Origin: Gracilinema caldarium
GTDB lineage: Bacteria; Spirochaetota; Spirochaetia; Treponematales; Breznakiellaceae
Length of the DNA: 64,000 nt
Direction of reading: 5' to 3'
Assembly: GCF_029265695.1 (NCBI RefSeq)
Contig: NZ_JAJUHW010000008.1
Location: 22,637-86,636, forward strand
The notes under the pieces are model-generated. The model did not search any database. It was not told the origin of the DNA and was given only the letters and a program-made list of their open reading frames with translations. The position numbers were made by a program, and so were the translations under genes. Numbering within the stretch: the stretch's first letter is position 1; each line of letters starts with the position of its first letter. Shown in pieces: positions 27,260-64,000 of this stretch.

Positions 27260-27260
27260 C

Positions 27261-34237: not shown

Positions 34238-34249
34238 CTATGGAATTAT

Positions 34250-35766: not shown

Positions 35767-35775
35767 GAGAAACCC

Positions 35776-40317: not shown

Positions 40318-40359
40318 GGTATATGCAGTATACAATCGCTGATTGTGAAAAACAAGCAT

Positions 40360-41621: not shown

Positions 41622-42728
41622 ATGGGCTTGCATATTGGCAAAAAAGCATCTGGTATTCTGATTATTTCGATTGTGCTTGTGGGGATAGTCCTGGCGGTAT
41701 TGATTCTTTTTGTCCGGGCTTCCCGAGCCAAGGCTGGGGATACTTCTGTACTTGAAGGAACACAAACAGACTCAGTGGCAAAAAATACTGCCCTGCCTGT
41801 AAATTATACGGAAACGAAAATATTTAGTGCTGCCATTTCGGGCCAGCCTATGGACCCAAATGTGACCGCCGCTTTGGGCCAGCTTGCCGAAGCAGAACGG
41901 AGCCAGGGTTTTTCCCCCGGGCTTGGGCTTGCGGAATCTACCCTGTACGAAAAGGCGGGAAACCTGGGGGCGGCGGTCCTCGCGGCCTTTAAGGAAGTAT
42001 TCTACGCCTATAGCTATGGTTATCTGGAAAAGAAGGCAGTAGAGGAGCGGCTTTCCATGGTAGCCCGCACCTATCCGGGCAACAAGGCCGTAGAGGCAGC
42101 GGTAGAAGCTTCCCGGGCTTTGCTTCGCCTGGACGGAGGCATGGGGCTTAAATCCCTTTCCTCTTTGCAGATCGCTTCCTATGAAATTGACTCCTTTCCC
42201 CGCTGGATGGAACGGGTGTTTATCCTTGAGTCTTCTGATGCGTCTCAAAAACCAAACAGGGCAACAGTACTTGAAGAGTACCGGGCCACCCGATCCCGCT
42301 ATGCGAATCAACCGCTTTATTGGCTTATGATTGCCCGCCATTCGGAGGGTCAATACATCTCTGATGCGGCGGAGCGGGTCATTTCACTGGCACCCCGGGG
42401 CCCCTTTGCAGCGCAGGGACGGGAATTGCTCGCGGTCTCCATCGGTTTGCCTAAGAGTGATGCATCATCGCTCATGAGCAGAATGGAAATAGAAAACATC
42501 ATTCAGGAGACGGCATCTTCGGGAAAAGTTGAACAGCTTGCCCAGCTTTTCCCATTGCTGTCCCTTCGTGACAACCCCTATACCCTGTATGCCCTGGGTG
42601 CCTGCCGGGGGCTTTCAGAGTCCCCCGCGGTCAAATCCTTTTTCTTAAAAGCAGCTAAGGAACATACTGGTCCCTTCTCTTCCCGTCTGAGCGAACGGCT
42701 CCGGTACATCGCGGGGGGCAAAATATGA
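41622..42728 (+). CDS. Membrane-anchored helical-repeat protein, first gene of the RND operon
   Basis: A 368-residue protein with one N-terminal membrane helix (about 8-30: GILIISIVLVGIVLAVLILF) and no lipobox, so it is probably an inner-membrane anchor facing the periplasm. The rest is Ala/Leu-rich helical sequence resembling degenerate TPR-type repeats (LGAAVLAAFKEVFYAYSYGY, AVEAAVEASRALLRL). No enzyme motif is visible. GGGAGG is 5-6 bases before ATG 41622; the ATG at 41604 lies upstream of that signal. The stop overlaps the next gene as ATGA. A role as a scaffold of the export assembly is inferred from position only. Confidence 0.65.
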   Translation: MGLHIGKKASGILIISIVLVGIVLAVLILFVRASRAKAGDTSVLEGTQTDSVAKNTALPVNYTETKIFSAAISGQPMDPNVTAALGQLAEAERSQGFSPGLGLAESTLYEKAGNLGAAVLAAFKEVFYAYSYGYLEKKAVEERLSMVARTYPGNKAVEAAVEASRALLRLDGGMGLKSLSSLQIASYEIDSFPRWMERVFILESSDASQKPNRATVLEEYRATRSRYANQPLYWLMIARHSEGQYISDAAERVISLAPRGPFAAQGRELLAVSIGLPKSDASSLMSRMEIENIIQETASSGKVEQLAQLFPLLSLRDNPYTLYALGACRGLSESPAVKSFFLKAAKEHTGPFSSRLSERLRYIAGGKI

Positions 42729-43480
42729 TTTCAAAAAGCGATGCTATCTATCCTCTTAAAGAGGAAGCGGCCCGATGGGAGCTTGATGCTTCAGGAGGGC
42801 TTCTCACAGTCCTTTTGCAGATTCTTATAGGCTTCCTGCTTGTTTTTCTGTTCCCCGCCTGCCAGTTCGGGACTGGCAAGACCACCATGTCTCCGCAAGA
42901 ACTTTCCGCATATACCAGGGCCCTGGAATTGTATAACCAGGGCCGCTATTCGAAAGCTGCAGACTCATCTCTCTCCCTTTCTGCTTTTTATCCAGCCCAG
43001 CTTCTGCGGGGGAAGGCCCTCTTTTTTGCCTCCCGTTACGCCGAGGCAGAGCTAGTCCTTGCGAAGGTCCAGAAACTAAAGCCCTCTTCTGCGGAGGCAA
43101 AACTGTACCGGGCTTATTGTGCACGGTCCCTTGGGAAGGATGCTGAAGCCCGTATGCTTGCTGAGGAACTTCTTGCGGATGACAGCGCAAACCTCAGGGC
43201 TTATCGGCTCCTTCTGGACTTAACCGAACCGGGCAGAGAGCGTTCCAAAATGCTGGACCAGGCATTAGAGGCAGCAGGAGAGGCAGCGCTTCTTTTTACC
43301 GAGCGGGCCCGCAGCCGCTGGATACTGGGAGACGCACCGGGGGCTCTCTCTGATCTTAATGCGGCTCAGGCCCTCCTCAATCCCGAGTCCTTCCTTTATG
43401 GACCCCTCGCAACCCTTGAAAAGACCATACTTTCCCAGACTGGTTCATCTAGTGTCCTTACGGCGGGAGGCAGAAAATGA
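42725..43480 (+). CDS. TPR-type lipoprotein of the RND operon
   Basis: A 251-residue protein with a 30-residue polar lead, a hydrophobic segment (about 27-44) and a lipobox-like FPAC with Cys46. Tetratricopeptide-like helices follow (ELSAYTRALELYNQGRYSKAA, PAQLLRGKALFFASRYAEAELVLAKVQKLKP). TPRs bind partner proteins, so it may hold complex members together. The long N-terminus before the lipobox is unusual; a later start is possible but no other signal is clear. It is coupled on both sides by ATGA overlaps. Confidence 0.7.
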   Translation: MISKSDAIYPLKEEAARWELDASGGLLTVLLQILIGFLLVFLFPACQFGTGKTTMSPQELSAYTRALELYNQGRYSKAADSSLSLSAFYPAQLLRGKALFFASRYAEAELVLAKVQKLKPSSAEAKLYRAYCARSLGKDAEARMLAEELLADDSANLRAYRLLLDLTEPGRERSKMLDQALEAAGEAALLFTERARSRWILGDAPGALSDLNAAQALLNPESFLYGPLATLEKTILSQTGSSSVLTAGGRK

Positions 43481-44001
43481 AGCATACCTTTGCCGTTGGT
43501 CTTCTCTGTGTGCTGACCCTGGCCTTAAGTTCCTGCGTGATCTTACCCCAACGGAGCAATGCAAGCTGGGGGCTTTATCCTGAGACAGGGGAAAAGCAAG
43601 ATTTAGTTAAGCGGAGTCTCATCCGTATCTATGTTGGAGAAGCCAGAATAGATAAAGCCTTGGGCGCCCGCTCCATACAGGAAGAGCTGCATCGTGCTGC
43701 GAGTCTGGATGTACTGCGCCGGGGCTATCAGCTTGCCCTATCTGAAGGCGAAGCGGATTACGGACTAGAGTTTTATGCGGTTGAGCGGGACTTTACCCAG
43801 GGCTGGCAGAACCGCAGGTCCGTCTCCCTCGAGGTCTCCCTGTGGCGTTATACAGACGATCAGGGCTCGGCAGAAAAAGTTCTTGTGGCTATGGGCCGCT
43901 CTGCCATGGTGGGGCAGGGGAGCCTCTCTTCTTCGCTGGACATGGAAGCGCTCCTTCGCAAAGCCCTGGATATGGCCTTGAATAGGGCTTTGCAAAAATG
44001 A
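43477..44001 (+). CDS. Small lipoprotein of the RND operon
   Basis: A 174-residue lipoprotein with a signal ending LALSSC (Cys20). The mature part alternates strands and helices (RSLIRIYVGEARID, YGLEFYAVERDF, SVSLEVSLWRY) and ends with a helix. The fold is reminiscent of small outer-membrane assembly lipoproteins such as LptE, but I cannot support homology. It overlaps the genes on both sides by four bases (ATGA), so it belongs to the export operon, directly before the TolC gene. Confidence 0.65.
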   Translation: MKHTFAVGLLCVLTLALSSCVILPQRSNASWGLYPETGEKQDLVKRSLIRIYVGEARIDKALGARSIQEELHRAASLDVLRRGYQLALSEGEADYGLEFYAVERDFTQGWQNRRSVSLEVSLWRYTDDQGSAEKVLVAMGRSAMVGQGSLSSSLDMEALLRKALDMALNRALQK

Positions 44002-45437
44002 TGCGCCCTGGCCGTGCCGTCCGCTTCTTTGTCTTTATATTGATGAGCCTCTCTGCCCATACAGTCCAAGGAACTGATGTTCTCAGGCCTCTTTCTATGA
44101 AAGAGGCCGCCGAAATGGCTGTAGCAGCATCGGCCGAACTTCGCGGTATGGAAACCCAACAGGTCCTAAAAGAAGGGGCCTGGATAGCGGGCTTGAGAGC
44201 CTTTCTTCCCAAATTGAGCTTTTCTGCCTCTGAGGATGACCGGCTTTCCCAGAATTCGGCTGATTCTTTTTCCAAAACCTATACCGTAAGTCTTACCCAG
44301 CTTCTCTGGGACGGAGGACGGCTCTCCGCAAGCCGCATGCTGGAAAAAACTGAACTGGATCTGGGAAGAAGCGACCTCCTGCGAAGCGCCGCCGAAACCG
44401 GCGAGGGGGCCATCAATCTGTATAGGACGGTCATGTATAAACGGGCTATCTATGACATACGGAAAAGAAACTTCGAGGCACTGGAACTCCAAAGGGCAAT
44501 TCTTGCCGAAGAGGTTCGCCGAGGCCTGGCGCTGCAAACAGATCTGGCAGAATCGGATCTCAGTTTGGAGCAGAACCAGCTTGATATGGCTATGATCCGT
44601 CTGGAATTGGATGAGGCGGAACAGGAACTTGCCTTTCGCCTTGGCTTAGACCAATTGCCTCCCCTATCGGACTGTATAGATCCCGAGCGGCCGTCGAGTA
44701 TTCCAGCAGAAAACATAGATGCCCTCATTGCTGCGGTGCAGCAAAGCGCCGCTGAACTGTACCCCGATATGGTTAAGGCCCGCTACGGGATACGGAAACT
44801 TTTAGCACAACTGGAAAACGCCCAGAAAGCCTGGTGGCCTACCATCAAACTAAATGGAGATGTCTCCCTTTCGGGAAACAGCTATCCGCTGACCCGTTAC
44901 AGCTATTCGGTTGCCCTAGTTGTTGAGTTTTCTCATCCCCTCTTGTCGGGCAGTCTTACTGGCCTCTCTGGTGCAAGTATGGCCGGCTGGGAAGGTCCCG
45001 CTGATAAGAATGCCCGGCTCCAGGGTACCGCCGAACCGCTCGGGGACCCCGCCTCCCTGTTCTCTGTCCGGTCCCTGGAAGCAAGCCTCGAATTGGAGCA
45101 AAGCAGGCTCACGCTCTTAAAAGTCCAGTTGGAACAACAAGCCAGGCGGCTTGTAAAGTCTTGTGTTGCGGCGGATCAAAAACGACGCATTGCCCTGGGA
45201 AAGTTTGCCCTTTCAAAAAAACAACTGGAGCTTGCAAACCTAAAACATTCGTTGGGACAGATGACAAGCCTAGAAATGATGAAGGCCCAAATTGGGCTTT
45301 CCCAGGAGGAAATAGGCCTTGTGGAAGCCGCTGTCGGTGTTTTGGAAGCAGAACGAAATCTGGAAAAACTCCTCGATCTTGGGCCCGGCGGTTTGGCTGC
45401 CTATATCGCTGATTTCAAAGCTGCTTTGTCAAAGTAA
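43998..45437 (+). CDS. TolC-family outer-membrane efflux protein
   Basis: A 479-residue protein with signal peptide (cleavage probably after HTVQG) and the TolC pattern of long coiled helices and strands in two repeats. Visible signatures are LSMKEAAEMAVAASAELR at the start of the first helix, SVSLTQLLWDGGR-like sequence (the beta-barrel strand followed by W-D-G-G), LEQNQLDMAMIRLELDEAEQEL, and a closing LEMMKAQIGLSQEEIGLVEAA. TolC trimers form the outer-membrane channel for RND pumps and type I secretion. A Gly/Ser-rich stretch near 310-350 interrupts the second repeat. It overlaps the preceding gene (ATGA); the adaptor follows 23 bases later. Confidence 0.88.
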   Translation: MMRPGRAVRFFVFILMSLSAHTVQGTDVLRPLSMKEAAEMAVAASAELRGMETQQVLKEGAWIAGLRAFLPKLSFSASEDDRLSQNSADSFSKTYTVSLTQLLWDGGRLSASRMLEKTELDLGRSDLLRSAAETGEGAINLYRTVMYKRAIYDIRKRNFEALELQRAILAEEVRRGLALQTDLAESDLSLEQNQLDMAMIRLELDEAEQELAFRLGLDQLPPLSDCIDPERPSSIPAENIDALIAAVQQSAAELYPDMVKARYGIRKLLAQLENAQKAWWPTIKLNGDVSLSGNSYPLTRYSYSVALVVEFSHPLLSGSLTGLSGASMAGWEGPADKNARLQGTAEPLGDPASLFSVRSLEASLELEQSRLTLLKVQLEQQARRLVKSCVAADQKRRIALGKFALSKKQLELANLKHSLGQMTSLEMMKAQIGLSQEEIGLVEAAVGVLEAERNLEKLLDLGPGGLAAYIADFKAALSK

Positions 45438-45460
45438 GAACCTCATATGAAGGAATAGAT

Positions 45461-46855
45461 ATGCATAAAAAGAATGTACGGGACCGCTTAATTTTAAGCT
45501 TAGTTTTAAGCAGCGCAATAAGCTCTGCCTTAATTGTCTCCTGCACTCCAGCAAAGGGAGAATCGGCGGAACGAGTATCCACTGCTCCTTTAGGGGTAAA
45601 AACCTGCATCGCCGAATACCGGACCATACCGGAAGAGGTATCCGGATTTGGTTCCCTTTCGTTTCTTAAAAAGGTGGATATTACCAGTTCCCAGGAAGGA
45701 ACCATTAAAAGCATTGAACGCCGGGAGGGCAGCCCGGTAAGGAGCGGTATGATCCTTGCGGTACTGGAAAACCCCCAGATAGAGCTTGCGGTGGGCCGGG
45801 CTCGGAATGCCTATGATCAGGCGGTGGCTGCTCTGGAACTGGCCAGGGCCCGGCTTTTAGAAGGGGAATTCCAGAGCGAAGCAAAAATCTTGGATCTAGA
45901 AAAGACCGAAGCCGAGCTTGCCCAGGCCCGCCGGGAGTATCAGGAGCAGGAACGGAAACTGCGGGATCAGGAAGCCCTCTTTGCCGCCGGCGGGGTAACG
46001 GAAGAAAGCATTCGGAGTGCCCGTTTCGCCCTGGATGCGAGCCGGGAACGGCTGCGGCTCCAGGAACAGGACCTCGCTATCCGCTGGGTAGGATTGCGGG
46101 TTCAGGATTTGGAAAACTCAGGAATTGCTGTACCCAAAACTCCGGAAGCCCTCCTCAAGGCCAGAATTGCCCTGGCCACCACAACGCTCAGGGCAGAGCT
46201 CCGGGCCGCGGAAGCCCGGCTCGACGCAGCTCAGAAGGAACTGGAATCGGCTCTTCTCGCTCAGAAAGAACTCACCATACTGAGTCCCATGGCGGGCCAG
46301 ATAGCGGCCCGGTACATGGAAATAGGGGAGCGGGTAAAGCGGGATGATAAGCTTCTTACCCTTATGGATACCCAGTCCCTCTATGCGACCATTCCGGTCC
46401 GGGAACGGGATGCCCAGCGGATACTTCCCGGTATGGTAGCCCGCCTTGATGTGGATGGGGCAGCGGGCTCCTGTACCGCCCAGGTGGACCTGGTAGCTCC
46501 CACGGCGGACAACCAGTCCTTTACCTTCCTGGTGAGGCTCCTCGTGGACCCCCAGGGCGTACAAAAATTACGCTTAAAACCGGGCATGTTTGCCCGTGCA
46601 ACCATCAAGCTTGGTTCGGAACGGAAAATACTCCTTATCGACGAGATCGCCTTGGCGGACAAACAGGGGGACCGGGGCAGGGTTTTCCTGATACAGCGGA
46701 ATCAGGCAGCGGAAAGGACCGTGAAGCTGGGGGATCTCTATGGTTCAAGCCGGGAAATCCTTGAAGGGCTTGAAGCCGGTCAGGTGCTGGTCCAGAAACC
46801 CGACATCGGGCCTGGGGGACTTAAGGACGGAGCCTATGTGGAAATTGTCCAGTAA
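45461..46855 (+). CDS. RND periplasmic adaptor lipoprotein (HlyD/AcrA type)
   Basis: A 464-residue membrane-fusion protein that links the inner-membrane RND pump to TolC. The lipobox IVSC gives Cys28. The lipoyl half-motif is SQEGTIKSIERREGSPVRSG (about 75-95), then a long coiled-coil hairpin (about 105-265, Glu/Ala/Arg-rich: AELAQARREYQEQERKLRDQ), the second lipoyl half LSPMAGQIAARYMEIGERV, a beta-barrel domain, and a membrane-proximal domain ending GGLKDGAYVEIVQ. TGAAGGAA precedes the ATG. Its last 20 bases overlap the next gene in another frame. Confidence 0.9.
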   Translation: MHKKNVRDRLILSLVLSSAISSALIVSCTPAKGESAERVSTAPLGVKTCIAEYRTIPEEVSGFGSLSFLKKVDITSSQEGTIKSIERREGSPVRSGMILAVLENPQIELAVGRARNAYDQAVAALELARARLLEGEFQSEAKILDLEKTEAELAQARREYQEQERKLRDQEALFAAGGVTEESIRSARFALDASRERLRLQEQDLAIRWVGLRVQDLENSGIAVPKTPEALLKARIALATTTLRAELRAAEARLDAAQKELESALLAQKELTILSPMAGQIAARYMEIGERVKRDDKLLTLMDTQSLYATIPVRERDAQRILPGMVARLDVDGAAGSCTAQVDLVAPTADNQSFTFLVRLLVDPQGVQKLRLKPGMFARATIKLGSERKILLIDEIALADKQGDRGRVFLIQRNQAAERTVKLGDLYGSSREILEGLEAGQVLVQKPDIGPGGLKDGAYVEIVQ

Positions 46856-48371
46856 GGGCCGCTGCGCTTTGTTTGGGCCGCAGTGCTTTATGCTTCGATG
46901 TGCCCTGCTCCGGTTTGCCGAGCTATTCTGTATTGGGATCGCGGTTTCTTCCTGCGGCTTTATAGACCTGCGGCCCATAGAATATTCAGTTTATCCCGAT
47001 CGGCCCGATGCGGTGGTGGCCGACCCTTTTGGCAGTCTGTCGGTCACTTTTTCTACCGAAATGGAGCGGGAAGAAGCAGAGCGGGCCCTTGTAGTCAGTT
47101 CCGCAAGGGGCTCTGTGGAGGGAGACCGGATATGGCAGGGGAACTGCCTTTACTTTATACCCCTTGCACCCTGGCAGGCTGGAGTCCGCTATGACCTGGG
47201 CTTAAGCGGAACGGTCCGCAGCAGAGACGGACGGGAACTCAAAGTTAACCAGCATATTCCTTTTTACGGCATCCTTCGGGGGGAAGTTCCGCGGCTCCTG
47301 GGGTCAACGCCCTCCGATGGGGGCAGTGTACCAGTGCTGGATCCAAGCGCGGCCGCTCTCCGGGGACCGGGAATAAGCTTTCAATTTTCGCTCCCCATGA
47401 AACGGCAAAGCCTCATAGATACCCTCAGGATCGAGGGCATTTCCGACCTGGACTGGGTATGGTCCGATGGAGACAGGATTGTAACGATATATCCTAAAAG
47501 CCCCCTTTCTCCCTGGACCCTCTACCGCTGGTCCGTAAAACGGGATGCCCAAAGCAGCCAGGGGGTCCCCCTTGCGGGGGATGTGTCGGGGACCTTTGTG
47601 ACGAACCTCGATACGGAACCTCCCCGGCTTGAAAGGACCTTTTCTTTGTACCGTTCCGGTCCGGTCTGGACGGAAACAAGCCGGTCTTTAAATGAATTGA
47701 ACCTGGGTGAGGCTATCGGGGTTCGGTTCTCTGAAGCCATGAACCGGGAAAGCCTTCTTGGCTCGCTCCGTTTCGAGCCATCCCTTCCCGGTTATACCCA
47801 GCAGTTAGATGAACGGACGGTAATCTATGTGCCTGACCGGCCTCCCGAACCGGAAACCTGCTATGTGCTGATCGTATCTGTGGATACTAAAGACACTTCC
47901 GGTCTCAGTTTGGGAAAGGAATACCGAGAAGCCTTTACGGTGGCTATTCCGTATCTCGCGCTTGTTTCGCTTGCAGCCGATGGCGTTCCGCCCTATACCG
48001 GTCCCTTCGCGGCATCTGGGGCAGCGCCCTATGCGGTACAGGTACTCCCCCCCGAAGGCCTTCTAGCCATCAATATACATTTCTCTCTTCCCTTTGCCGT
48101 CTCCGCCCAGAGTTCAGTCTTAAAATATATACAACTTTCGCCCTATTTCCCCGGAACCCTTGCCCCTGTGGCTTTACGGCAGGCTTCATGGATTTCTGAC
48201 AGGGTGCTGCGCCTCGTGTGGGAGGGCCTTGAAGCCGGAAGCGGCGGCATTGCACATTTTTACCGGCTTTCCTTGAGCGGCGGCAGGTCAGGCCTCACTA
48301 CGGAAGGCGAAGGAAATCTGGGCTGCTGGCTTAAAGAGTCCCTCGTTCTCTATCTGGAGGCCCAGCCATGA
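46836..48371 (+). CDS. Ig-like (Big_5/SbsA-type) lipoprotein A of the RND operon
   Basis: A 511-residue lipoprotein with lipobox VSSC (Cys40) and repeated Ig-like units of the Big_5 type: LSVTFSTEMEREEAERALVV (first), ISFQFSLPMKRQSLIDTLRI (second) and IGVRFSEAMNRESLLGSLRF (third). The phrase strand-F-S-x-x-M followed by a helix and a second strand recurs about every 120 residues. The start at 46836 has AAGGACGGAG before it; a second ATG at 46890 would shorten the lead to a normal signal peptide and is a real alternative. The 3' end overlaps lipoprotein B by ATGA. Function unknown; a surface or periplasmic spacer in the export system is inferred. Confidence 0.75.
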   Translation: MWKLSSKGRCALFGPQCFMLRCALLRFAELFCIGIAVSSCGFIDLRPIEYSVYPDRPDAVVADPFGSLSVTFSTEMEREEAERALVVSSARGSVEGDRIWQGNCLYFIPLAPWQAGVRYDLGLSGTVRSRDGRELKVNQHIPFYGILRGEVPRLLGSTPSDGGSVPVLDPSAAALRGPGISFQFSLPMKRQSLIDTLRIEGISDLDWVWSDGDRIVTIYPKSPLSPWTLYRWSVKRDAQSSQGVPLAGDVSGTFVTNLDTEPPRLERTFSLYRSGPVWTETSRSLNELNLGEAIGVRFSEAMNRESLLGSLRFEPSLPGYTQQLDERTVIYVPDRPPEPETCYVLIVSVDTKDTSGLSLGKEYREAFTVAIPYLALVSLAADGVPPYTGPFAASGAAPYAVQVLPPEGLLAINIHFSLPFAVSAQSSVLKYIQLSPYFPGTLAPVALRQASWISDRVLRLVWEGLEAGSGGIAHFYRLSLSGGRSGLTTEGEGNLGCWLKESLVLYLEAQP

Positions 48372-49927
48372 AGCTTTTCTGGAATATGGGCCTTCTTATA
48401 ATTTCCCTTTTCATGGTCTCCTGCGACATACTCCGTTCCTCCCCCTTCGAGGTGGTCTCCTGGACTCCGGGACCGGGGCCGCGGCAGTTCAATGCGGGGC
48501 TTTCCCTTTCGCTCACCTTTTCCCATGAGGCGAACCGGTACAGTGTAGAACGGGCCCTTTCGGTAACAGAGGACGGCCTTCCCCTATCCCTTTCATTTTC
48601 TTGGGATGGCAAGACGCTCAGGATTATTCCCGCAACTGCTCTGCGGGAAAACCGGGAGTACCGCATCAGCCTTGCTGCGGATGCCCAGGACTTGGAGGGC
48701 CTTAACCTAGACAGCCCCTTCGAAGGCCGTTTTAGCACCCGCCCACAGGCGGATCGTCTCAGACTCCTTTCGAGTGTCCCCGCCGACGGCGGCTTAATAA
48801 GCGCTGGTGGAGGGGAATCGGGCCCTCTCTTTGTGCCCCTTTTCCTCCATTTTTCCCATGGGGTAAGCCTTCCTTCGCTTTTGCAGCAGGCGTCTTTTAA
48901 TCCATCTATTCGGGGACTTTGGAGTCTTGAAAATGGGGGAAGCTCAGCCCGCTTTACCCCCCAGGAGGCCTGGCAAAAGGGTAAATCCTATGTCCTTACC
49001 CTGTCCAAGGACCTTTGCGACCAGTATGACCGGCCCATGGGCTATGCTTCGGTTATACACTTTTCTGTTGGTGAGGATATTATTCCGCCCCGCCTTAGGG
49101 GCATACAAATCCAGGATAAGCAGGGGAACCTTATAGGGCACCTTGATTGTACAGAGTGGGAGGGGCTTACGGGGCCGCCTGAGATACCGCCCCTTACTGA
49201 ATATTTTGAAAGGACCTCTCAGCTGGTGCTTGAATTTTCAAAGCCCGTCGATCCTCTTTCGGTTAAAAACAGGCTTTCCTTTCAGCCCTCCCTGTCTTAC
49301 AGTGTGGAACCTACCTATCCAGCCGCATCCATCATTACTATTCGTTTTACCGAGAGTCCCCGCTATGGTTCGGTTTATACCCTGCTTTTAGGCAAGGATA
49401 TAAAAGACGAAGAGGGAACCAGCAGTGTCCTCCAGGCTGCCTGCCGCTTCCTCATAAACGGTCCCGGTTCAAAGCCTCCGCGGCTTAGGGCGATCCGTTT
49501 TCCCCTAGCGCCGGGAGCGGCGGGGGACCATGAACCTGCACTGTACACCATGGATCAGGTGTTTGCGGATTTTCCCCTCGAGGCCGGCAGTGAGCGTTAT
49601 CCCTTTGATATTCCGACAAACACCTGGATAGAGCTCTATTTTGAAACCGCCCAGGCCGGAACAGTGGATCTCTTCTCCCTCATGAATACCTTCAGTTTAA
49701 GCGTTACCAATTCGTGTCTGAGCTTTTCCCCCCGCAGCGTTTTAAGAACCGGCTTTACCTGGGCCGATCCTGAGGCAGGATATGAACAGTTTGAACGGAT
49801 AGAAATTCGGGGACTCCTTACCAACAGCACCAATGCGGGGCTCGTGACCTGGACTATCGCTGCGGGGCTTTTAGACAGCCTTGGAAACTCATCTGGGGAA
49901 GCGCAGCTGCTTCCGCTTCGGAAGTAG
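48368..49927 (+). CDS. Ig-like (Big_5/SbsA-type) lipoprotein B of the RND operon
   Basis: A 519-residue lipoprotein (signal to FMVSC, Cys19) related in architecture to its neighbour. The Ig-like repeats include LSLTFSHEANRYSVERALSV, VPLFLHFSHGVSLPSLLQQA and LVLEFSKPVDPLSVKNRLSF. The repeat pattern FSTR.. (RFSTRPQADRLRLLSSVPADG) closes each unit. The two genes look like an ancient tandem duplication, though the sequences have diverged. ATG overlaps the previous stop. The RND gene begins 10 bases after this stop. The role is unknown, but linkage to the pump is tight. Confidence 0.75.
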   Translation: MKLFWNMGLLIISLFMVSCDILRSSPFEVVSWTPGPGPRQFNAGLSLSLTFSHEANRYSVERALSVTEDGLPLSLSFSWDGKTLRIIPATALRENREYRISLAADAQDLEGLNLDSPFEGRFSTRPQADRLRLLSSVPADGGLISAGGGESGPLFVPLFLHFSHGVSLPSLLQQASFNPSIRGLWSLENGGSSARFTPQEAWQKGKSYVLTLSKDLCDQYDRPMGYASVIHFSVGEDIIPPRLRGIQIQDKQGNLIGHLDCTEWEGLTGPPEIPPLTEYFERTSQLVLEFSKPVDPLSVKNRLSFQPSLSYSVEPTYPAASIITIRFTESPRYGSVYTLLLGKDIKDEEGTSSVLQAACRFLINGPGSKPPRLRAIRFPLAPGAAGDHEPALYTMDQVFADFPLEAGSERYPFDIPTNTWIELYFETAQAGTVDLFSLMNTFSLSVTNSCLSFSPRSVLRTGFTWADPEAGYEQFERIEIRGLLTNSTNAGLVTWTIAAGLLDSLGNSSGEAQLLPLRK

Positions 49928-49937
49928 GGGAAAGCTT

Positions 49938-52900
49938 ATGCGGAGTATTATCAGGCTTTGTACTGAGAGACCCGTAGGAGTCAGCATGGTGCTCCTGGCG
50001 GTATTGCTCGCCGGAGGCATCGGCTCATCCATGTTACCGGTAGACATACTGCCCAGCCTTGAAATTCCCCGGGTACAGGTTGATGCACCCTATCCCGGTA
50101 TGGCAGCCCGGGAAGTCCGTTCCCTGCTCACTATTCCGCTGGAAGATGCCTTTGCATCGGTGCGATCCCTGCAGCGCATCCGGAGTGTTTCCCGGGACGG
50201 GGAAGCGGTCCTTGTCCTTGACTTTGCCTGGGGGACCGACCCCTCTGCGGCGGCGGTTCTGGTCCGTGAAGCCATCGATGCGGTATATCCCCAACTGCCC
50301 GAAGGCACGGGGCGGCCCCTGGTAATCAGCGGAGACCCCGAGACGGAACCGATTGCCATTGTGGGTGTCCGGTCCAGGACTCAGGATATTCAATTTGCCC
50401 GGCACCTGGCGGAGTATGAGCTGCGGTCCCGGTTTAGACGGATTGATGAAATTGGCCGGGTTGTGCTTGTAGGGGGCCAGGAAGAGGAAGTCCGCCTCCG
50501 GATAGATCCTGAACGTTCCTTTGCCCGGGGACTCGGGGCATCGAGCCTGGCACAGCTTATCGGTTCCGAATGGGTAGACGTCAGCGCTGGAACCGGACGG
50601 GAAGGAACGCAGGAACTGGTGATTGTCTGTGCCGGAAAGCCCGAATCGGTCCAAACATTACCGAATCTTGCCTTGCCCACCAGGGGCGGCCCCCTGTATA
50701 CGAAGGATGTTGGAGAAATCAGGGTAGAAAAGCAGGATCGAAAAAGTATTTTTATCGCCGACGGCAAAGAGGCGGTAGCCCTTGAACTGTACCGGCGGAG
50801 TGGTACCAATCCGATCCAGGCTGCAAAAAAGGTGCGGGAAGTTTTGGCGGAGGCTCAAAAGGATTTTGCCAAAGACGCAGAGGTCTTTCTTGTCTTTGAT
50901 GGCTCCGCTGCAACCCGTCGGGGCCTTGCGGATCTCGGAAGGAGCGCCCTTCTGGGGGCTTTAGCGGTAATCCTGGCGATTTTCTTTTTTATTCCCTCCG
51001 GGCGGGGCAGCTTCCTTACTCTGCTCTCTCTCCCCTTTTCTGCAGCAGCGGCCCTGGCAGCCCTGGCGCTTTCAGGCAGATCCCTTAACAGCATGAGCCT
51101 CGGCGGTCTTGCCCTGGGGATAGGCCTCGTGTCGGACACCTCAGTGGTCATTCTGGAACTGCTGGATCGCAGCTTTGGTACCCCTTCAGGTCCCCAAAGC
51201 CAATCCAGCCCAGACCGCCCCAGGTCCGAAAGACCCAGGGCTGAAAAGCCCCGGGCTGAAAGACCCAGGGCCGCCGCGGTGGCAGATACTGTTGCCACGG
51301 TGGCATCCTCATCCCTGGGCAGTACCATTACCACGGCCATTGTCTTTGTGCCGGTTCTGTTTTTGCCTGGTCCCCTGGGAAGCCTCTTCGGTGATATGGC
51401 GGTGTGCCTCGTGGCCATGGTCGCCGCAGGCTGGGTCTACGCCCAGTTTATCCTGCCCTCACTGTACCGATTCCTTTGGAAAGGCCGCCCTCGAACTGCC
51501 AAAGGGGCCCTCCTGTGTTGGATTGACAATTTATACGGAAAACTGCTGCGCTTATCCTTCCGCCGCCCCCGCCTGCTCTGGGGTATAGCGGTCCTGGCGG
51601 TTGTCGGAGGTACCCTGCTTTTAATAAGCCGGCCGGTCCGCTTTACCCCCTCTGGCGGCTATGACGAACTCAGGCTCGAGCTTGCCTTCCCGCCGGGCAC
51701 AGCCCTGGATGTAGTCGCCCTGCAAAGCGAAGCCGTGGGAAATTTGCTTTCAGGGCTTCCTTCCTTTGCGTTGGTCTTTGGCAGGGCAGGCTCGGAAACG
51801 GAAGATAGCCTGCGGCGATCCTCCACGGAATACCGGAAGGAGTTGGTTCAATTCCGTTGTTTCTTGAAACAGTCCGCCGATATTTCATCAATCTATTCTA
51901 TGCTTCGAAAATACCTGGTCCGGGAAGGCCTTTTTGATGCCAGCCTGCGCATTGAGCCTCCCCAGGACAAGATAGAGAGCATCCTTGGCCTCTCTTCCGC
52001 TTACACCGTGGCCCTTAAGGCGGAGAATCCCGACACACTACAGGCGGAACGGAAGCTTATTATGGATGAACTTGCGTCCCGTCTACCTGGAGCGAGCCTG
52101 TCCTGGAGGCCCGCCCTGCTCAGGCCGGAAATACGGCTCACCCTCAAGCCGGATATGGCCGCCTCGGCCCAGCTTTCCACCCTCACTGTCGGCAGGTCCC
52201 TCATGGCTTATACCGATGGCCTTGTGGCGGCCCGGATGGAGCGGGATGGCCGGCCTATCGATATACGGGTGTTGGGCAAAAAGTTCGGCGGCGAAGCTCT
52301 TGGCAGTTTAGAAATGCTCCCTGCAAACGAGGGCGGGAAAAGCCCCGTCTTATTGGGAAGCATTGCCCTGATTGAACAAAGGGAAAGCGAAGCCGCTTTA
52401 GCCCGGCTTGACCGTTCCGATGTGGTTTATATTGATGTGCTCCCCCGCGGCGGTGGCGTTGGGGGCGGCGGGATTGCTGCCGGCAGCGGCGGAAAAAACA
52501 GGAGCCGACAATCCTTAAGTAGTAGCTTGGAACGGGCGGTCAAGGACCTCAAGGGCCTTTCCTATGCGGACCAATCAGCCTTTGTCCGGTACCAAAAAAC
52601 GCTTCTTTTTACCGTTTTACTCGTTATTCTTCTATTATATATCTCTCTTGCAGCCCAGTTTGAATCCTTTAGCCTTCCGCTGCTTCTCCTAGTAAGTATT
52701 CCCTTTTCTCTTGCAGGGGCAGGGCCTGCTCTCTTCCTTGTTGGTGCGGGGCTGGATTCTGGATCCGTCCTTGGCCTTGTGGTGCTCTTTGGACTTGCGG
52801 TCAATAACGTCATCATTCTGTACGAAGTGGGAAGAGACAAGATAGGAGAGGGACTGCAGCCGGTATTGGCGGTATACCGCGGTGCCCGTGAACGGCTCCG

Positions 52901-53096
52901 GCCTGTTCTGGCTACCACCGCAACAACCCTGCTGGCCCTGCTGCCGGTCATCGTTTCTCCCCTGGGACCTTCCCAAAGGTCCATGGCGGCCGCCATGTTC
53001 GGCGGCGTTGCGGCCAGTACCCTGATTTCTCTCCTTGCCTTTCCGCCCCTGCTTGTTCCTTATTTGTCCCGCCGGGAGGCTTCCCATGTTGCTTGA
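49938..53096 (+). CDS. RND-family efflux permease, first copy (AcrB-like)
   Basis: A 1052-residue inner-membrane pump of the RND superfamily (hydrophobe/amphiphile type), driven by proton flow. TM1 is near 10-35; PSLEIPRVQVDAPYPGMA and AREVRSLLTIPLEDAF open the first periplasmic porter region. The TM4 motif GLALGIGLVSDTSVVI keeps the first of the two relay Asp residues of AcrB (Asp407) and has Thr at the second. In TM10 the AcrB Lys is Asn (GLAVNNVIILYE), as in many RND proteins. A linker in the TM4-TM5 cytoplasmic loop (residues about 414-451) contains an Arg/Pro/Glu tandem repeat. AGGGG precedes ATG 49938. The 3' end overlaps the second permease by 11 bases. Confidence 0.93.
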   Translation: MRSIIRLCTERPVGVSMVLLAVLLAGGIGSSMLPVDILPSLEIPRVQVDAPYPGMAAREVRSLLTIPLEDAFASVRSLQRIRSVSRDGEAVLVLDFAWGTDPSAAAVLVREAIDAVYPQLPEGTGRPLVISGDPETEPIAIVGVRSRTQDIQFARHLAEYELRSRFRRIDEIGRVVLVGGQEEEVRLRIDPERSFARGLGASSLAQLIGSEWVDVSAGTGREGTQELVIVCAGKPESVQTLPNLALPTRGGPLYTKDVGEIRVEKQDRKSIFIADGKEAVALELYRRSGTNPIQAAKKVREVLAEAQKDFAKDAEVFLVFDGSAATRRGLADLGRSALLGALAVILAIFFFIPSGRGSFLTLLSLPFSAAAALAALALSGRSLNSMSLGGLALGIGLVSDTSVVILELLDRSFGTPSGPQSQSSPDRPRSERPRAEKPRAERPRAAAVADTVATVASSSLGSTITTAIVFVPVLFLPGPLGSLFGDMAVCLVAMVAAGWVYAQFILPSLYRFLWKGRPRTAKGALLCWIDNLYGKLLRLSFRRPRLLWGIAVLAVVGGTLLLISRPVRFTPSGGYDELRLELAFPPGTALDVVALQSEAVGNLLSGLPSFALVFGRAGSETEDSLRRSSTEYRKELVQFRCFLKQSADISSIYSMLRKYLVREGLFDASLRIEPPQDKIESILGLSSAYTVALKAENPDTLQAERKLIMDELASRLPGASLSWRPALLRPEIRLTLKPDMAASAQLSTLTVGRSLMAYTDGLVAARMERDGRPIDIRVLGKKFGGEALGSLEMLPANEGGKSPVLLGSIALIEQRESEAALARLDRSDVVYIDVLPRGGGVGGGGIAAGSGGKNRSRQSLSSSLERAVKDLKGLSYADQSAFVRYQKTLLFTVLLVILLLYISLAAQFESFSLPLLLLVSIPFSLAGAGPALFLVGAGLDSGSVLGLVVLFGLAVNNVIILYEVGRDKIGEGLQPVLAVYRGARERLRPVLATTATTLLALLPVIVSPLGPSQRSMAAAMFGGVAASTLISLLAFPPLLVPYLSRREASHVA
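51216..51275 (+). repeat. 15-bp tandem repeat coding RP[R/K]-type pentapeptides
   Basis: About four imperfect copies of a 15-base unit (CGCCCCAGGTCCGAA, AGACCCAGGGCTGAA, AAGCCCCGGGCTGAA, AGACCCAGGGCCGCC) encode RPRSE-RPRAE-KPRAE-RPRAA in the first RND permease. It lies in the predicted cytoplasmic TM4-TM5 loop. Array length could vary between strains. Confidence 0.85.
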
Positions 53097-56000
53097 TAAG
53101 CCCCTGAGAACCCTGGCCTTGCTTTGCTTCGCTGTACTCCTTGCTCTTTCGCTGCTCCTTATGGATGAAGGCACCGCTGGGAGAGACTCCGCTGATGCTT
53201 CCTATGCGATCACGATACGGCACTATGGCATTAACGGAGAGGAAATGGAACGGACCGTCGCCATCCCCCTGGAGGATGCCCTCTCTGCCATTCCAGGTTT
53301 AAAGCGGCTTGTCAGCACCAGTGAACAGGGTAAGGTCAGGGTGCTGGCCCAGTTCTCAGGATCAAACAAGGGCATCTACGAAGCAGTCAGGGATGCGGCC
53401 CAGGCTGTCTATGAGGGCCTCCCGCCCTCCGCACAACGGCCAGAAATCGCGAGCTCCCGGGACAGCCGGATTCCCCTTTGGTCCGCGGCGGTGCTCTATA
53501 AAGAAGGCTTTTCCCCTTCGGTCACTACGGGTAAGGACTTGTCCCTTGGAACCATGCTGGAACGGAGGGTAAAACCTGCCCTGGAGCGGCTTGAAAACGC
53601 GGGGGAAGTGGAACTGGCCGGTACGGGGCTTCCGGAGCTCTGTATCAAGCTGGATGAAGCAGCCTGCGCTGCCCGGGGCATAGAACCCTGGATGCTCGCC
53701 CGAGAGTTGGCAGAAGGGGATCTTTTAGTCCCCGCTGGAACCTTTCGGAGCGGGGATCGGGAAATTATGATGAGCCTGGACGGAAAATCCCGATCTGTCC
53801 AGGATTTACTGAACCGGCTGGTAAATCTCCCTTCAGGAGGGGTGGTTCCCCTTTCTCAGTTAGGCACCATTCAGGAGAGGGACCGGTATCCAGAAATTCT
53901 TGCCCGCTTGGACGGGAAAACCGCAGCGGTTATTTCAGTCATGGGATCTTCCCAGGCCCAGCAGGGCAGCATTGCCATGGGTAAGCTTTCCCGGGATATC
54001 AAACGCACCATACAAGAACTTTCTGATCTCCCGCTGGAATTCCGGGTCCTTTCGGATCGGGGGGAAGAGGAAGAACGGGCCCTCAGGTCCGTATTCTCCG
54101 CAGCCCTCCAGGGAACGGGGGCGGTTGCCCTGGCGGTGCTTCTCTTTATCGGCGCCGATCCCCTTATGGGGCTCCTTTCGGTTCCCCTCATTATGCTGTT
54201 TTCGGCGGCCCTGCTGCGCCTTTTTGGATTTCCCCTGGACCGTTTAAGCCTTGCGGGCCTTTCCTGCGGGGTAGGGGCTGCGGTGGACGGTACTATTTTA
54301 GTCTTTGAACGAGTCGGAGGCGCTGGAAATACTGTAAGCAAACAAAAAGCCCTCGCTTCCCTGGCCCCGTCCCTATTTGCAAGCACCCTCACCACCATTG
54401 CGGCCCTGCTTCCCCTGGCCCTGCTCGGTTCCGATTCTGCCATGATCAGTGCGGTCGCCTGGGGAATCGGTGTTAGTTCCGCCCTTTCTCTCCTCGTATC
54501 TTTAGTGTTTTTGCCTCCCCTTATCGGTTTTTCTCTTCCGATTCCCTGGATACAGGCTCTGAAAGGCCGGGCACGGCGTATTTTGCGGCGTATCTTGCGG
54601 CGCTTCCTGCAGCACCAGGCTACTGCACCGCGCCGTCTCACTGTGTTGCAACGGTCCATCGCACCGCACCGCTCCTCATTGCAGCGCTTATCCGCCGCAC
54701 CGCGCCGATCTGCATCGCGTCTTATGCTCCTTTCCTACCGGAAGCCCCGGCTTACGGTGCTGGTCTTTGCCGCCCTATCAATTGTGGGATTTACTGCCAT
54801 GATAGCCGCCGGGGCCGATACGGCCCCCCTCCCATCGGAAGACTCTGTTTATGCCCAGATAGAATGTGAGGGCGGACTGCTGGCCGAAAAGGTAAACGAA
54901 GAACTTGCTGATTATGTCTCATCCCTGCGTAGCAAGGATGGCATCAAGGCCGTGCAGACCAGCGCACGGACCGGTTCCGCTTCGCTCCTCGTATCCTTTG
55001 ATCCCCGTAAGCAAACGGTAGAGCAAGTTCGAGACCTTGTCCGTTCCATTCCAGTATACGGCGGCTTTGTCTATATTCCCGAAGCCTCTTCCCGGGACCG
55101 TATTTGGAAGATTACCGTGGCTGGGGATGATGCAGAAATTTGTAAGGACATAGCCCGAAGGCTCGCATCTCGCTGCCAGGGAGACAGAGAGGTCCGGGAA
55201 GCGGTGCTCAATTTTAAGGAAGGGAGCCTCCGTAGCCGCCTTATCCCGGATCGGGAAAAAATGGCAGCCCTCGGTCTCAGCACCGCTTCCCTGGCAGATA
55301 CACTGAAAAGGTCGGTCTACGGACCGGTCATTTACAAACGGGTTGCCGAAGGGGGCGAAATGGATGTACGGCTCCAATACGGTACGGAAGACCGGATAAA
55401 CCGGAGCAGCCTCCTAGCCATACCCCTGAAGGCTCCTCTCAGGGTCTTCCAAGTCCTCACGGAGACCGGTGACCGGGAACCCTCATCTATCCGGCGGGAA
55501 AACCGGCGCCGGGTGGCTTCCCTTTCTGTTCGCACCCGTCCTATGGATCCCCGCAGGATCCGGGACCGTCTGCGCCCCCTGTTCGCCAAGGAAACGCTTC
55601 CGCCAGGTTATTCGGTCGAATTTGATCGGGAGGCGACAGAGGCGGCCGAATCCCTTTCCCGCATTACGGTCTATTTCATGCTGGCCCTCCTGTTCTGTTT
55701 TATGGTCATCGCCGTCGCCACCGAATCCTTTGCAGCCCCTTTGCCGGTTCTCGCAGTTGTTCCCCCTTCTTTAGCCATACCTGCCCTGGCGACGGTCCTC
55801 TCCGGTTCGGCAATCGATCTGGCCCTTGCCTGCGCCTTTGTGGCCGTGAGCGGTATTGCGGTTAACGCGGCGGTTTTAGCGGTGGAAGCCCTTCGGGAAG
55901 GGGGGCCGGTCCGCCGGGAAGGCTATCTATACCGGGCCCTGCGCCGGCGTTTTTCAGCCCTGGCCGCCACAAGCCTTACTACCGTCATCGGTTCGGTGCC

Positions 56001-56196
56001 CTTTTTATTTCTCCCCGGAGCGGCAAACCAGGTAGTCCGTTCCCTTGCCCTGGTGAGTACCCTGGGGGTGAGTGCCTCGGCTCTGTCTTCTATCAGTCTC
56101 ATTCCTGCCCTAGCTAGCCTTTGGCCGGACTTTACCATACCAAGCATCCCGCAGCAGGCGGGATCATCATCCTTACCAGAAGGAGCCCAGTCATGA
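53086..56196 (+). CDS. RND-family efflux permease, second copy
   Basis: A 1036-residue RND permease, distinct from but paired with the first. The opening MLLDKPLRTLALLCFAVLLAL is TM1; VAIPLEDALSAIPGLKRLVST starts the porter domain. In TM4, GLSCGVGAAVDGTILVFE keeps one relay Asp and has Gly at the second AcrB position; the TM10 region GIAVNAAVLAVEAL also lacks the AcrB Lys. The TM6-TM7 cytoplasmic loop (residues about 493-550) carries two kinds of Arg-rich repeat. GGGAGG is 6 bases before ATG 53086. Two adjacent, dissimilar permeases suggest a heteromeric pump in the manner of MdtBC (inference). The coiled-coil gene overlaps the stop by ATGA. Confidence 0.92.
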   Translation: MLLDKPLRTLALLCFAVLLALSLLLMDEGTAGRDSADASYAITIRHYGINGEEMERTVAIPLEDALSAIPGLKRLVSTSEQGKVRVLAQFSGSNKGIYEAVRDAAQAVYEGLPPSAQRPEIASSRDSRIPLWSAAVLYKEGFSPSVTTGKDLSLGTMLERRVKPALERLENAGEVELAGTGLPELCIKLDEAACAARGIEPWMLARELAEGDLLVPAGTFRSGDREIMMSLDGKSRSVQDLLNRLVNLPSGGVVPLSQLGTIQERDRYPEILARLDGKTAAVISVMGSSQAQQGSIAMGKLSRDIKRTIQELSDLPLEFRVLSDRGEEEERALRSVFSAALQGTGAVALAVLLFIGADPLMGLLSVPLIMLFSAALLRLFGFPLDRLSLAGLSCGVGAAVDGTILVFERVGGAGNTVSKQKALASLAPSLFASTLTTIAALLPLALLGSDSAMISAVAWGIGVSSALSLLVSLVFLPPLIGFSLPIPWIQALKGRARRILRRILRRFLQHQATAPRRLTVLQRSIAPHRSSLQRLSAAPRRSASRLMLLSYRKPRLTVLVFAALSIVGFTAMIAAGADTAPLPSEDSVYAQIECEGGLLAEKVNEELADYVSSLRSKDGIKAVQTSARTGSASLLVSFDPRKQTVEQVRDLVRSIPVYGGFVYIPEASSRDRIWKITVAGDDAEICKDIARRLASRCQGDREVREAVLNFKEGSLRSRLIPDREKMAALGLSTASLADTLKRSVYGPVIYKRVAEGGEMDVRLQYGTEDRINRSSLLAIPLKAPLRVFQVLTETGDREPSSIRRENRRRVASLSVRTRPMDPRRIRDRLRPLFAKETLPPGYSVEFDREATEAAESLSRITVYFMLALLFCFMVIAVATESFAAPLPVLAVVPPSLAIPALATVLSGSAIDLALACAFVAVSGIAVNAAVLAVEALREGGPVRREGYLYRALRRRFSALAATSLTTVIGSVPFLFLPGAANQVVRSLALVSTLGVSASALSSISLIPALASLWPDFTIPSIPQQAGSSSLPEGAQS
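54574..54609 (+). repeat. 12-bp tandem repeat in the second RND permease
   Basis: Three copies of a 12-base unit: CGGCGTATTTTG (54574-54585), CGGCGTATCTTG (54586-54597), CGGCGCTTCCTG (54598-54609). They encode RRIL-RRIL-RRFL-like basic-hydrophobic tetrads in the predicted cytoplasmic TM6-TM7 loop. Confidence 0.85.
54625..54725 (+). repeat. 36-bp degenerate tandem repeat in the second RND permease
   Basis: Units begin GCACCGC at 54625, 54661 and 54697, exactly 36 bases apart, and decay towards the third. They encode 12-residue units starting APRR, APHR and APRR, with Arg, Leu, Gln and Ser. This extends the basic linker before TM7. Confidence 0.75.
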
Positions 56197-59100
56197 AATC
56201 GAATTTCCAAAAAGTATCCTTACTGTTGATGAACCTTTTGGTTCTGGCCCATCTGCATCTCAAGGCGGATACAAAGCCCGATGTAAAGGGTTTTGATACG
56301 GGAACCGTAGATTATTCTTTTTCCCGGGCGGATGTGGCACTGGATCCTGGTACATGGATGAGAACCGCCGACAACGGTATTACTCTGGCCCGGCAATCCT
56401 GGGAGCGGCTTGTCCTGACACTCTATGAGGATGAGACTGAACGGGCTGCGGCAGCCAAACGGCTCGATGTCTGGTCCCGGGAAGAGATAGAACGCCGCTT
56501 TAGCCAGTGGCTCGAGCGGCGCTTTTTCCCTGAACGGGCAGCAGGCCTTTCAGCCGCGGAAAATGCTGCGGTGCGGAAGGCAAATCTTGCCTACCTTTAT
56601 AAAACCGATGTTGCGGGAAACATTCTCTATGACAGTGCCACCGGGGATCCCCTGGTGATTCGGCCCGAAGATGGAGGGCTGGACCGGCTCGCCGCGGACA
56701 GGGTTGCATGGCAGAACCAGGTTGCCCAGGGGCGGGAACAGGCATTGGAACAATTCAGAACCCTCATGGCTTCCTATACCCCTGAACTTTTAGGTTCCGT
56801 GGCGCCAGAAGGGAGGTCTAGCTTTGCGTCACAGCTTGAAGCCCTCGGGGAGCGGCTTGTAAACCGGAAGCGAAAAGAACTGGAAGCTCTGGCCTCCCAG
56901 GAAGAACGGCTCTTTGTGGCCCGCCGTACCGGCGATGTATACAGCTTAAGGAAAAAAAGCGAAAGCGAGGCTGCCTCGGCCATTGTTGCCCAGCTTATCA
57001 GGGAGACCCAGTCCAGCCTGGATCAGAGTCTTACCTCCCTGCAGACCCAAATAGAAGCCGCATCGGCCGGCACCGGAGACCTGGCCCTGGCGGGGGCCGA
57101 CTGGCTTGCGGCCTATAAGGAACAGTTCCAGCGGGGACTCGATGCCTGGCAGAAGGCGGAAGAACGGTTCATGCTCCGCCGAATCGAATGGGAGCAGGAA
57201 GCGGGAAAACGGTACCGCGAAGGGGAAGAAGCCTGGACCAAGGCCTTTGAAAGCCTTGCCAAGGAACAGCAGATCTGGGAATCCAAGGCAAAAAGCCTCT
57301 TCCAGGCCGGTGAAGAAACCTTTAAGCGGGCTAGCGATGCTTTAGAACGGGCAATTGCGGAAGCCAAAGCGGAGTTTCAGAGGGACGCGGATCTGCGCAG
57401 CCAGGCTGGGGCTGACCGGGCCAGGGCATGGGTGGATACCTACGTTACAAGCGGCACCATGGTCGTAAGCGCCCGGGAAAGCAGCCAGTATTGGATTAAA
57501 AAACTGGCTGACAAAAACAGCCAAAAAACAGCCCCCGATATGGGGGATAGCGCTCTCCGCACCTGGACCGACAGCAGCCTGAAAACCATCTGGACCGAGG
57601 CACGGGACCGGTACAAACAGCTTGAAAGCTATAGGACTGACCTCCAAAAACTCAACGAAAAAGAAGCCCTCCGGAACCGGACCAAAAACGAGGCAAAAAT
57701 AAATTACGAAAATGCCAAACAAAAAGAAGAAGAACTTCAGAATGAGATTGATGAATATACCGATGATGATTCCAGTTATATTTCGCAAGCTGACTTGGAT
57801 AAACTTAAAGACCAGCTCAACCAGGCCCGGTCGCAGCGGCTGTACTGGGAAGACTGGTATATTAACTATGACAGAAAACATGCCGAAGCGGAGGCCGACT
57901 ATGTGGCTGCAAAAAACAGCTTTGATGTCACCCATGCCCTCTACTACAGGCTCGAAACGGCCATTTCCAGCATACCGGAAAACGACGCCGCGCTGAACCT
58001 CGCCCGGGATGCCCGGGCAGCCCTTGGCGCTAATTTTGATCCAGACCTGATTCAGGCCGGTGTGGAGCTTAAACGATGGATGGCTATTTACTCTGAATAT
58101 TCTAACCGGGCCCGGGAAGCCCTGAACACCCTGACCAAGGACTTTGGTCTTGCAATCGGAAGCGGCGCCGGAGCCCTGGTGGACATTCTCGATCCCTCTA
58201 AAACGAGCGAAGATTTTCATCTTGATGAATACCAGATCGAATTGATTCGAAGCCAGGCGGTGGCAGCCTACTGGCAAAAACGGGTAGACATAGCCCAGGC
58301 TGTTTCACAGTATGCGGAGGACCTCACCGCCGGACGAACCACCGATGCGGAAAGCGTCGCCGCATGGAAGGCCGCGAAGACTGCCTATGACAATGCCCTC
58401 GCAGCATATACGGAAGCCCAGGCAGCCCTCTCGAGCGCGGGAACTACGGTTCAGCAGGTCCGTGAACAGGTCGCCCAGGCAGCAGCGGAACTAGCCAAGG
58501 CGGACCGGGACCTGGAGGAACTGAATCAGACCTATGCCCTTAAAATGTCCGTTTATATGGTGGGGAGTGCTTCCTACCTTCAAACGGAACTGCGGAGCCG
58601 GTACCAGGACCTTTTGGAACAGTATGGGCTCCTTGAAAAATCGGGGGACGATGCCCCCTATGTGGAGTATCTGGAAAAGGCAAAACGGTATGGTATAGCC
58701 GGAACGGTAGAAGCGGCGGGGCTCGCCCTAAAAAGCCTTGTCCGGGGCGACTACGGCGAAGAGGCCCTGTCGGTGTTACAGGACCGCTATACAGCCATCA
58801 CCGTGCCAGAGGACAATACACATATTTCTTCCCGTATCGAGGATTTTGGACTCGAAAGCAGCCACCCGCTCTACGGGAGCCTTAAAGCAGCCTATGAACG
58901 GTGGCAGAAAGCCCAGGGGGCCGAAAAAGAACAGCTAGGCTCGCTTATGGTGGACCTTGCCCGAGAAGCAAAAGGAAGCGCCAAGTCAGAGTTGGAAGGC
59001 CGGCTCGATGCGATAAGCCTCCTCGCTGCTACAGATTGGAGCCTTTGGTACACAAACCGAGGGGGTACCCAGGAGAATACCGCAATCCAGAACAAGGGAA

Positions 59101-64000: not shown

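Follow-up and report, generated by a model that had tools for sequence, protein, structure and literature searches.

The window, by which we mean the whole stretch of 64,000 nucleotides analysed here, ends in a cluster of ten genes. On sequence comparison, we somewhat favour reading this cluster as a unit dedicated to toxin export: its RND-adaptor-TolC machine would secrete a giant protein for which the anatomy of its relatives predicts the role of a polymorphic antibacterial toxin.

Composition and boundaries of the gene cluster

The cluster consists of ten plus-strand genes (g1 to g10; Table 1), which are packed head to tail from position 41622 to the window end (64000). With the starts chosen here, the successive gaps from g1 to g10 are -4, -4, -4, +23, +34, -4, +10, -11, and -4 bp. 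The start of g6 was picked among several, an earlier alternative being 46836, and the signal peptides and lipoboxes of the cluster proteins were assigned by eye. The cluster probably begins downstream of the terminator-like hairpin listed in Table 1, to which the scan lends weak support, with 29 terminator-like sites observed and 23.6 expected by shuffling. The packing and this upstream hairpin suggest a single transcript for the ten genes. The initial annotation had described a polycistron of nine genes; the packing and the gene set hold, and the count does not, since its own list contains ten. The gene identities that it proposed (TolC, adaptor, two Big_5 proteins, two RND permeases, and, below cut-off, the TPR protein) agree with the Pfam and NCBIfam matches.

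Table 1. Features of the gene cluster in window coordinates
Feature	Position	Strand	Evidence or remark
Terminator-like hairpin with T run, interval between the upstream gene and g1	41490..41504	+	Consensus scan
g1, helical protein with a single N-terminal membrane anchor	41622..42728	+	Without Pfam family
g2, TPR protein, N-terminal hydrophobic segment, doubtful lipobox	42725..43480	+	TPR_16 2e-5, below cut-off
g3, small lipoprotein (lipobox by eye)	43477..44001	+	Without Pfam family
g4, TolC-family outer-membrane channel	43998..45437	+	OEP 3.1e-27
g5, RND-type periplasmic adaptor, lipoprotein by eye	45461..46855	+	TIGR01730 162 bits, cut-off 94.9; families HlyD/RND_mfp
g6, Big_5 Ig-like lipoprotein	46890..48371	+	Big_5 2.1e-15
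g7, Big_5 Ig-like lipoprotein, co-occurrence marker	48368..49927	+	Big_5 1.6e-25
g8, RND permease 1	49938..53096	+	ACR_tran 1.4e-144
g9, RND permease 2	53086..56196	+	ACR_tran 3.1e-81
g10, giant exported protein, truncated by the contig end	56193..64000	+	Likely ATG 56193
N-terminal part of g10 (470 residues), conserved, with long helices predominating	56193..57602	+	Alignment and predicted model

The genome contains two further full-length RND permeases on other contigs, and its g7-like matches are confined to this cluster. A CHASE4 histidine kinase gene (38719-40359, minus strand), two genes ahead of g1, might encode a sensor for the cluster. Ordinary genes elsewhere in the window include a glutamate synthase pair (22547-28718) and a run of purine genes (32729-38600), among them an adenylosuccinate lyase-like gene and those for IMP dehydrogenase and GMP synthase.

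The contig (86636 bases) ends where the window ends and cuts g10. G001, a complete relative of the same genus (taken as Gracilinema caldarium; a single contig of 3,239,340 bases), has a homologue of 3,676 residues. The 2,602 residues encoded up to the contig end align to its residues 1-2558 (51% identity), and roughly 1,100 residues would lie beyond. In each of the three draft assemblies from the genus (the window at 64000, G002:C182, and G003:C146), the contig breaks inside the 3' part of the giant gene, as repeated cassettes would cause.

Constant N-termini and variable C-termini of the giant proteins

Among 98 giants in the database, the 42 with a D-Y/F-W marker near the end were compared, and the 56 lacking the marker were left out. 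The first 470 residues were alike in all 861 pairs and the 300 residues ahead of the marker in 851 of them; the last 180 residues were alike in just 182 of the 861 pairs and formed nine groups. The 42 giants have a constant N-terminal part and a variable C-terminal domain, as do polymorphic toxins. The initial annotation saw a giant coiled coil of more than 2,600 residues. Its size holds, and long helices are predicted for its N-terminal part; a purely structural role is rejected in view of the variable C-termini of the relatives, which were invisible from the window because it ends before the giant does.

Standalone cassettes with other C-termini were found in three genomes (G001, G229, and G194). 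In G001, six frames spread over about 25 kb downstream of the giant gene each combine pre-toxin parts with a different end, and these partial copies carry C-termini and partner genes other than those of the main giant. A cassette of 1,344 residues shares 83% identity with the giant as far as giant residue 3366, and one of 1,010 residues shares 79% as far as residue 3316; past these points, no similarity to the end of the giant was found. The G001 copies are joined by DNA repeats of about 80-97% identity, which stop about 1 kb short of the end of the main frame. A transposase-like frame (L191, 1222987-1224198) comes after the final G001 cassette, and between the cassettes lies a frame on the reverse strand (L040, 1210391-1211521), the end of which is found again in G002 and G003; both families were assigned by eye. 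In G229, a segment of 1,701 bp comprising the end of the giant, its partner, and the next gene is repeated with 98% identity past three other cassettes. An orphan frame of G194 matches the end of the G160 giant with 97% identity along 359 residues, and their partners are 91% identical; the giants of G194 and G160 differ at that end, being 84% identical before it and 93% at the N-terminus. In the database, the orphan cassettes seen go under the names 'M23 family metallopeptidase' or 'hypothetical protein'. The pre-toxin profile matches nothing in the window genome (G000), whose contig stops before that region of g10.

The model predicted for the N-terminal 470 residues of g10 (mean pLDDT 74) consists of long helices, one of them of 97 residues; it gave no PDB match at E<=0.001, and a docking role cannot be read from it. 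A model of the C-terminal 330 residues of the G001 giant, made without alignment, was unusable (mean pLDDT 31). Several candidate identities for the giant were discarded. Sec8_N is the sole Pfam match of g10 and lies below the cut-off. TIGR04388, a family of long Leptospira proteins, had no NCBIfam match in the G001 giant, and its name is absent from the open-licence literature searched. The toxin name 'TreTu' led to literature that is not spirochaetal by title.

Peptidase families were recognised in 28 of the 98 giants and in nine of 20 tails that were scanned, some of the latter below cut-off. The precomputed Pfam domains of the 28 giants are, by our own count, 24 M23, three NlpC/P60, and one M15; the other 70 have none. 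The Pfam scan of the tails found M23 in five (above cut-off in G022 and G047), C39_2 in two (both above cut-off), and CHAP and NlpC/P60 in one each (both below cut-off); the other 11, including the tail of the main G001 giant, had no credible Pfam match. By eye, an S-x-G-C motif was noted in the ends of G160, G365, G010, and G041 (the last outside the tail scan), which resembles that of L,D-transpeptidases. The recognised ends are predicted peptidases of kinds that act on peptidoglycan, the C39-like ends less certainly, and ends acting on peptidoglycan would need to cross the outer membrane only. Zhang et al. (2012; PMC3482391) include NlpC/P60 and L,D-peptidase ends in their account of polymorphic toxins.

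Partner genes beside the C-termini

A partner was defined as a same-strand gene that starts between -60 and +150 bp of the end of the giant or cassette frame and has an N-terminus hydrophobic enough to pass a simple test. Such a gene directly follows 31 of 36 ends from 30 genomes; the stop of the G002 cassette was placed three bases off, which leaves the outcome unchanged. For the control, 93 further genes were taken from eight loci, and 40 of them passed the hydrophobicity test; the start picker favours signal-bearing starts for the partners and not for the control, so that this contrast is inflated. The five misses comprise G022, the larger cassette of G003, and G240, with no partner in range, and G005 and G010, with signal-less frames. 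The list of 36 includes neither one of the G001 orphans, nor those of G194 and G229, nor the giant ends found in G241, G137, and G189. Ten partners examined with Pfam yielded three SH3_3, four NADase_transloc (F5/8 C type), one set of leucine-rich repeats, and two without a match.

The ends and the partners covary. In the 465 pairs formed by 31 end-partner sets, the ends are alike in 18; the partners are alike in 10 of these 18 pairs and in 31 of the 447 others (p about 2.5e-7, the pairs not being independent). This covariation fits cognate toxin and immunity genes, with the qualification that partner modules are also common to different end types. The partners resemble immunity genes by position and covariation only.

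The giant family very probably has polymorphic-toxin anatomy with putative immunity genes, and the g10 protein of the window would have it by inheritance. In the part of PMC3482391 considered here, polymorphic toxins are described as having a large delivery region, an exchangeable C-terminal domain, standalone cassettes, and a likely immunity gene directly after; the giants likewise possess a large delivery region, exchangeable ends, cassettes, and an adjoining partner gene. TolC, RND, M23, T1SS, and 'type I secretion' are unmentioned in that part of the paper. Neither Pfam nor NCBIfam revealed a delivery domain of a known pathway in the giant, and its delivery pathway would be new. CdiA/CdiB contact-dependent inhibition and the Rhs systems combine a giant stick, an exchangeable toxin end, an immunity gene, and downstream orphan modules. 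The giants and their orphan cassettes are like them in the giant stick, the exchangeable end, the partner gene, and the downstream orphan modules. They are unlike them in the repeats and the transporter: Pfam and NCBIfam detected neither hemagglutinin nor Rhs repeats in the ten cluster proteins, nor a transporter of the CdiB type.

The peptidase families found at the ends also remodel a cell's own wall, and together with the very long predicted helices this could suit a self-acting envelope protein whose ends remodel the producer's wall, for example around the periplasmic flagella, the pump being a scaffold across the envelope. We consider this improbable, as interchangeable ends, partial cassettes, and covarying partners are unlike housekeeping enzymes, and as the unit is missing from most spirochaetes sampled: the profile of the giant N-terminus has matches in 61 of 344 genomes of the phylum sample.

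Recurrence of the gene set and co-occurrence of the giant and the pump

Ten matched counterparts in unchanged order were found in G001, G030, G013, and G022; the giant gene of G030 (L042, 292-9072) is in two reading frames of 735 and 2161 residues. The g1 counterpart heads the unit in these four genomes and in G052, where two small unmatched frames are in place and an extra 498-residue frame lies ahead of the giant. G224 has no g3 match, and G277 has no matches to g1 and g3, with frames in place; in the neighbourhoods read, a g3 counterpart was not detected in several relatives. G160, G274, and G194, more distant genomes of the same taxonomic order, share the gene order g1, g2, g6, g7, g4, g5, g8, g9, g10. 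The pump and the giant are divergent in G171, G225, and G265 and, by reading, in G063, and the permeases of G217 are inverted relative to the remaining genes.

In all, 33 neighbourhoods were read (the window genome, 12 relatives, and 20 others), each reaching some 18 kb upstream of the giant gene unless the contig ended sooner. In 23 of them, the giant has one or more RND genes of this family in its vicinity, a single one being seen in G003, G225, and, as a weaker case, G240. In G041, other pump genes are near the giant and the RND pair is on another contig. No pump RND gene was present in the stretch read in nine neighbourhoods (G005, G047, G365, G357, G129, G354, G337, G189, and G241); all nine genomes have a g7-like match elsewhere, the weakest at 5.1e-27.

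Among 58 near relatives, the window genome included, the giant occurs in 20 and g7 in 20; 19 have both, one has the giant only, and one the marker only. Across the 344 genomes, a strict Big_5 threshold (1e-25) gave 57 with both, 4 with the giant only, 18 with Big_5 only, and 265 with neither, and a loose one (1e-3) gave 59, 2, 100, and 183, respectively; the sampled genomes are related and few candidates were scored per genome, so that p-values from these counts are overstated and absences are not firm. In addition, the contigs of 25 of the 98 database giants are identical in base count to the contig of one of the g9 homologues listed (120 out of 466), and a control with shifted values gave a mean of 0.245 versus 25. 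The recurrence of the gene set in other genera is an association that exceeds chance.

These observations led us to reject an accidental neighbourhood, in which an ordinary drug pump happens to stand ahead of an unrelated giant gene. The nine neighbourhoods without an RND gene and the NCBI and JGI names, which label the permeases efflux subunits, speak in its favour, and it is contradicted by the recurrence in changed orders, the co-occurrence, and the matching contigs of database giants and g9 homologues, which make it extremely improbable. The initial annotation had itself regarded the unit as accidental if RND-TolC genes were found without, or far from, the lipoproteins and the giant. Its proposal largely withstands this comparison, as the Big_5 proteins, the RND pair, and the giant associate across the phylum; the exceptions are the nine neighbourhoods just mentioned and the marker-only genomes, where a giant-like frame was seen in G219 alone among the nine annotated.

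Of these 18 genomes, nine were annotated; in three more the contig was shorter than 6 kb, and the remaining six are G059, G079, G081, G245, G253, and G262. No giant was detected in eight of the nine. G197, G310, and G355 encode TolC, the adaptor, two Big_5 proteins, and two RND permeases without a giant; G069, G071, and G247 have pumps with no giant in the stretch read, and G099 and G376 have pump parts only. G219 has two pump copies (L203 and L205; C2 and C13), one of them divergent from a frame of 2,823 residues or more, which neither the giant profile nor Pfam matches. A 773-residue protein after the G310 pump, considered as a small cargo, proved to be methionyl-tRNA synthetase. On a giant-less contig of 14.8 kb in G071, the pump operon (L201, G071:C33, 634-14649) has a clostripain-family (Peptidase_C11) gene between the adaptor and Big_5 genes, the product of which is perhaps another cargo or a processing protease. 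As the giant-less pumps of G197, G310, G355, and others indicate, the pump can occur in the absence of this cargo, or together with an unrecognised one.

The pumps without a detected giant, and the nine neighbourhoods in which the giant is far from the pump, are what would be seen if the giant were a polymorphic toxin that leaves the cell otherwise, and the pump exported a lipid or small molecule for the surface, the two being held together by a shared life style. Known RND pumps do move small molecules (PMC8277102). We judge this separation of pump and giant unlikely: the linkage persists in changed orders, the two co-occur even when the loci are apart, and by Pfam and NCBIfam the cluster offers no other exporter for the giant. 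Export of the giant by the linked pump, predicted from the linkage, appears fairly probable, and the pump-only genomes argue against an exclusive role.

Comparison of the pump with known efflux and secretion systems

An RND permease, an adaptor, and an outer-membrane channel are encoded together by Pfam and NCBIfam matches, as in tripartite pumps. Like HAE-type RND-adaptor-TolC pumps, the cluster has ACR_tran permeases, an RND_mfp adaptor, and an OEP channel, and it has two permeases, as does MdtBC, the two-permease example in the part of PMC8277102 considered. Unlike HAE-type pumps, it adds two Big_5 proteins, TPR and small accessory proteins, and the giant, and its permeases are far under the drug-pump cut-offs and altered at TM4 and TM10 residues. 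The best scores against the HAE-1 drug-efflux models were 377.7 bits for g8 and 201.1 bits for g9 (cut-off 1250), and g4 scored 74.4 bits against the TolC model TIGR01844, below its cut-off of 225.15. The importance of the Asp pair in TM4 and the Lys in TM10 is known from AcrB. The aligned solved efflux permeases have two Asp in TM4 and Lys in TM10; g8 and g9 have one Asp in TM4 and Asn in TM10 (six of six sequences of each permease), and neither carries the HAE-1 residues. Their names in NCBI and JGI are efflux RND transporter and 'multidrug efflux pump subunit AcrB'. An ABC domain, the energiser of type I secretion, was absent from all ten proteins in the Pfam search, and Pfam and NCBIfam showed no alternative exporter for the giant within the cluster.

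According to the part of PMC8277102 considered here, MacAB-TolC exports enterotoxin II, which is brought to the periplasm by Sec and then passes the tripartite pump through TolC, and its cargo reaches up to about 10 kDa. A similar two-step route, Sec followed by a tripartite TolC pump, is proposed for the cluster. Unlike MacAB-TolC, which is an ABC pump with a cargo of about 10 kDa in that source, the cluster encodes an RND pair with a predicted cargo of 300-400 kDa. The titles and abstract starts of the open-licence literature searched, with preprints and most subscription papers outside, contained no RND precedent for a cargo this large and no description of this gene unit. To our knowledge, no RND pump exports a protein of 300-400 kDa.

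Proposed export route and its implications

In the proposed mechanism, Sec would bring the giant to the periplasm, where the adaptor and the RND pair would take it over, guided by the Big_5 and TPR proteins. The RND pair, coupled by the adaptor to TolC, would then drive the giant outward. The long helical rod, displayed or released, would carry the C-terminal domain to a neighbouring cell, where this domain would cut the peptidoglycan, and the partner protein would shield the wall of the producer. The initial annotation had suggested an envelope-spanning machine other than simple efflux; that view and its option of secretion fit the evidence, and the relatives of the giant speak for polymorphic-toxin anatomy instead of a purely structural coiled coil.

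Whether the unit represents a new class of protein secretion in spirochaetes is, in our estimate, evenly balanced: after Sec, a proton-driven RND dyad with adaptor, Ig-like, TPR, and TolC proteins would export giant modular toxins with exchangeable wall-cutting heads. If this is true, an RND pump would drive the export of proteins of 300-400 kDa, and spirochaete genes named multidrug efflux would be a misnamed weapon launcher that is spread over the phylum. There would be many toxin-partner pairs, apparently aimed at the cell wall, and spirochaetes would have a testable route of competition with their neighbours.
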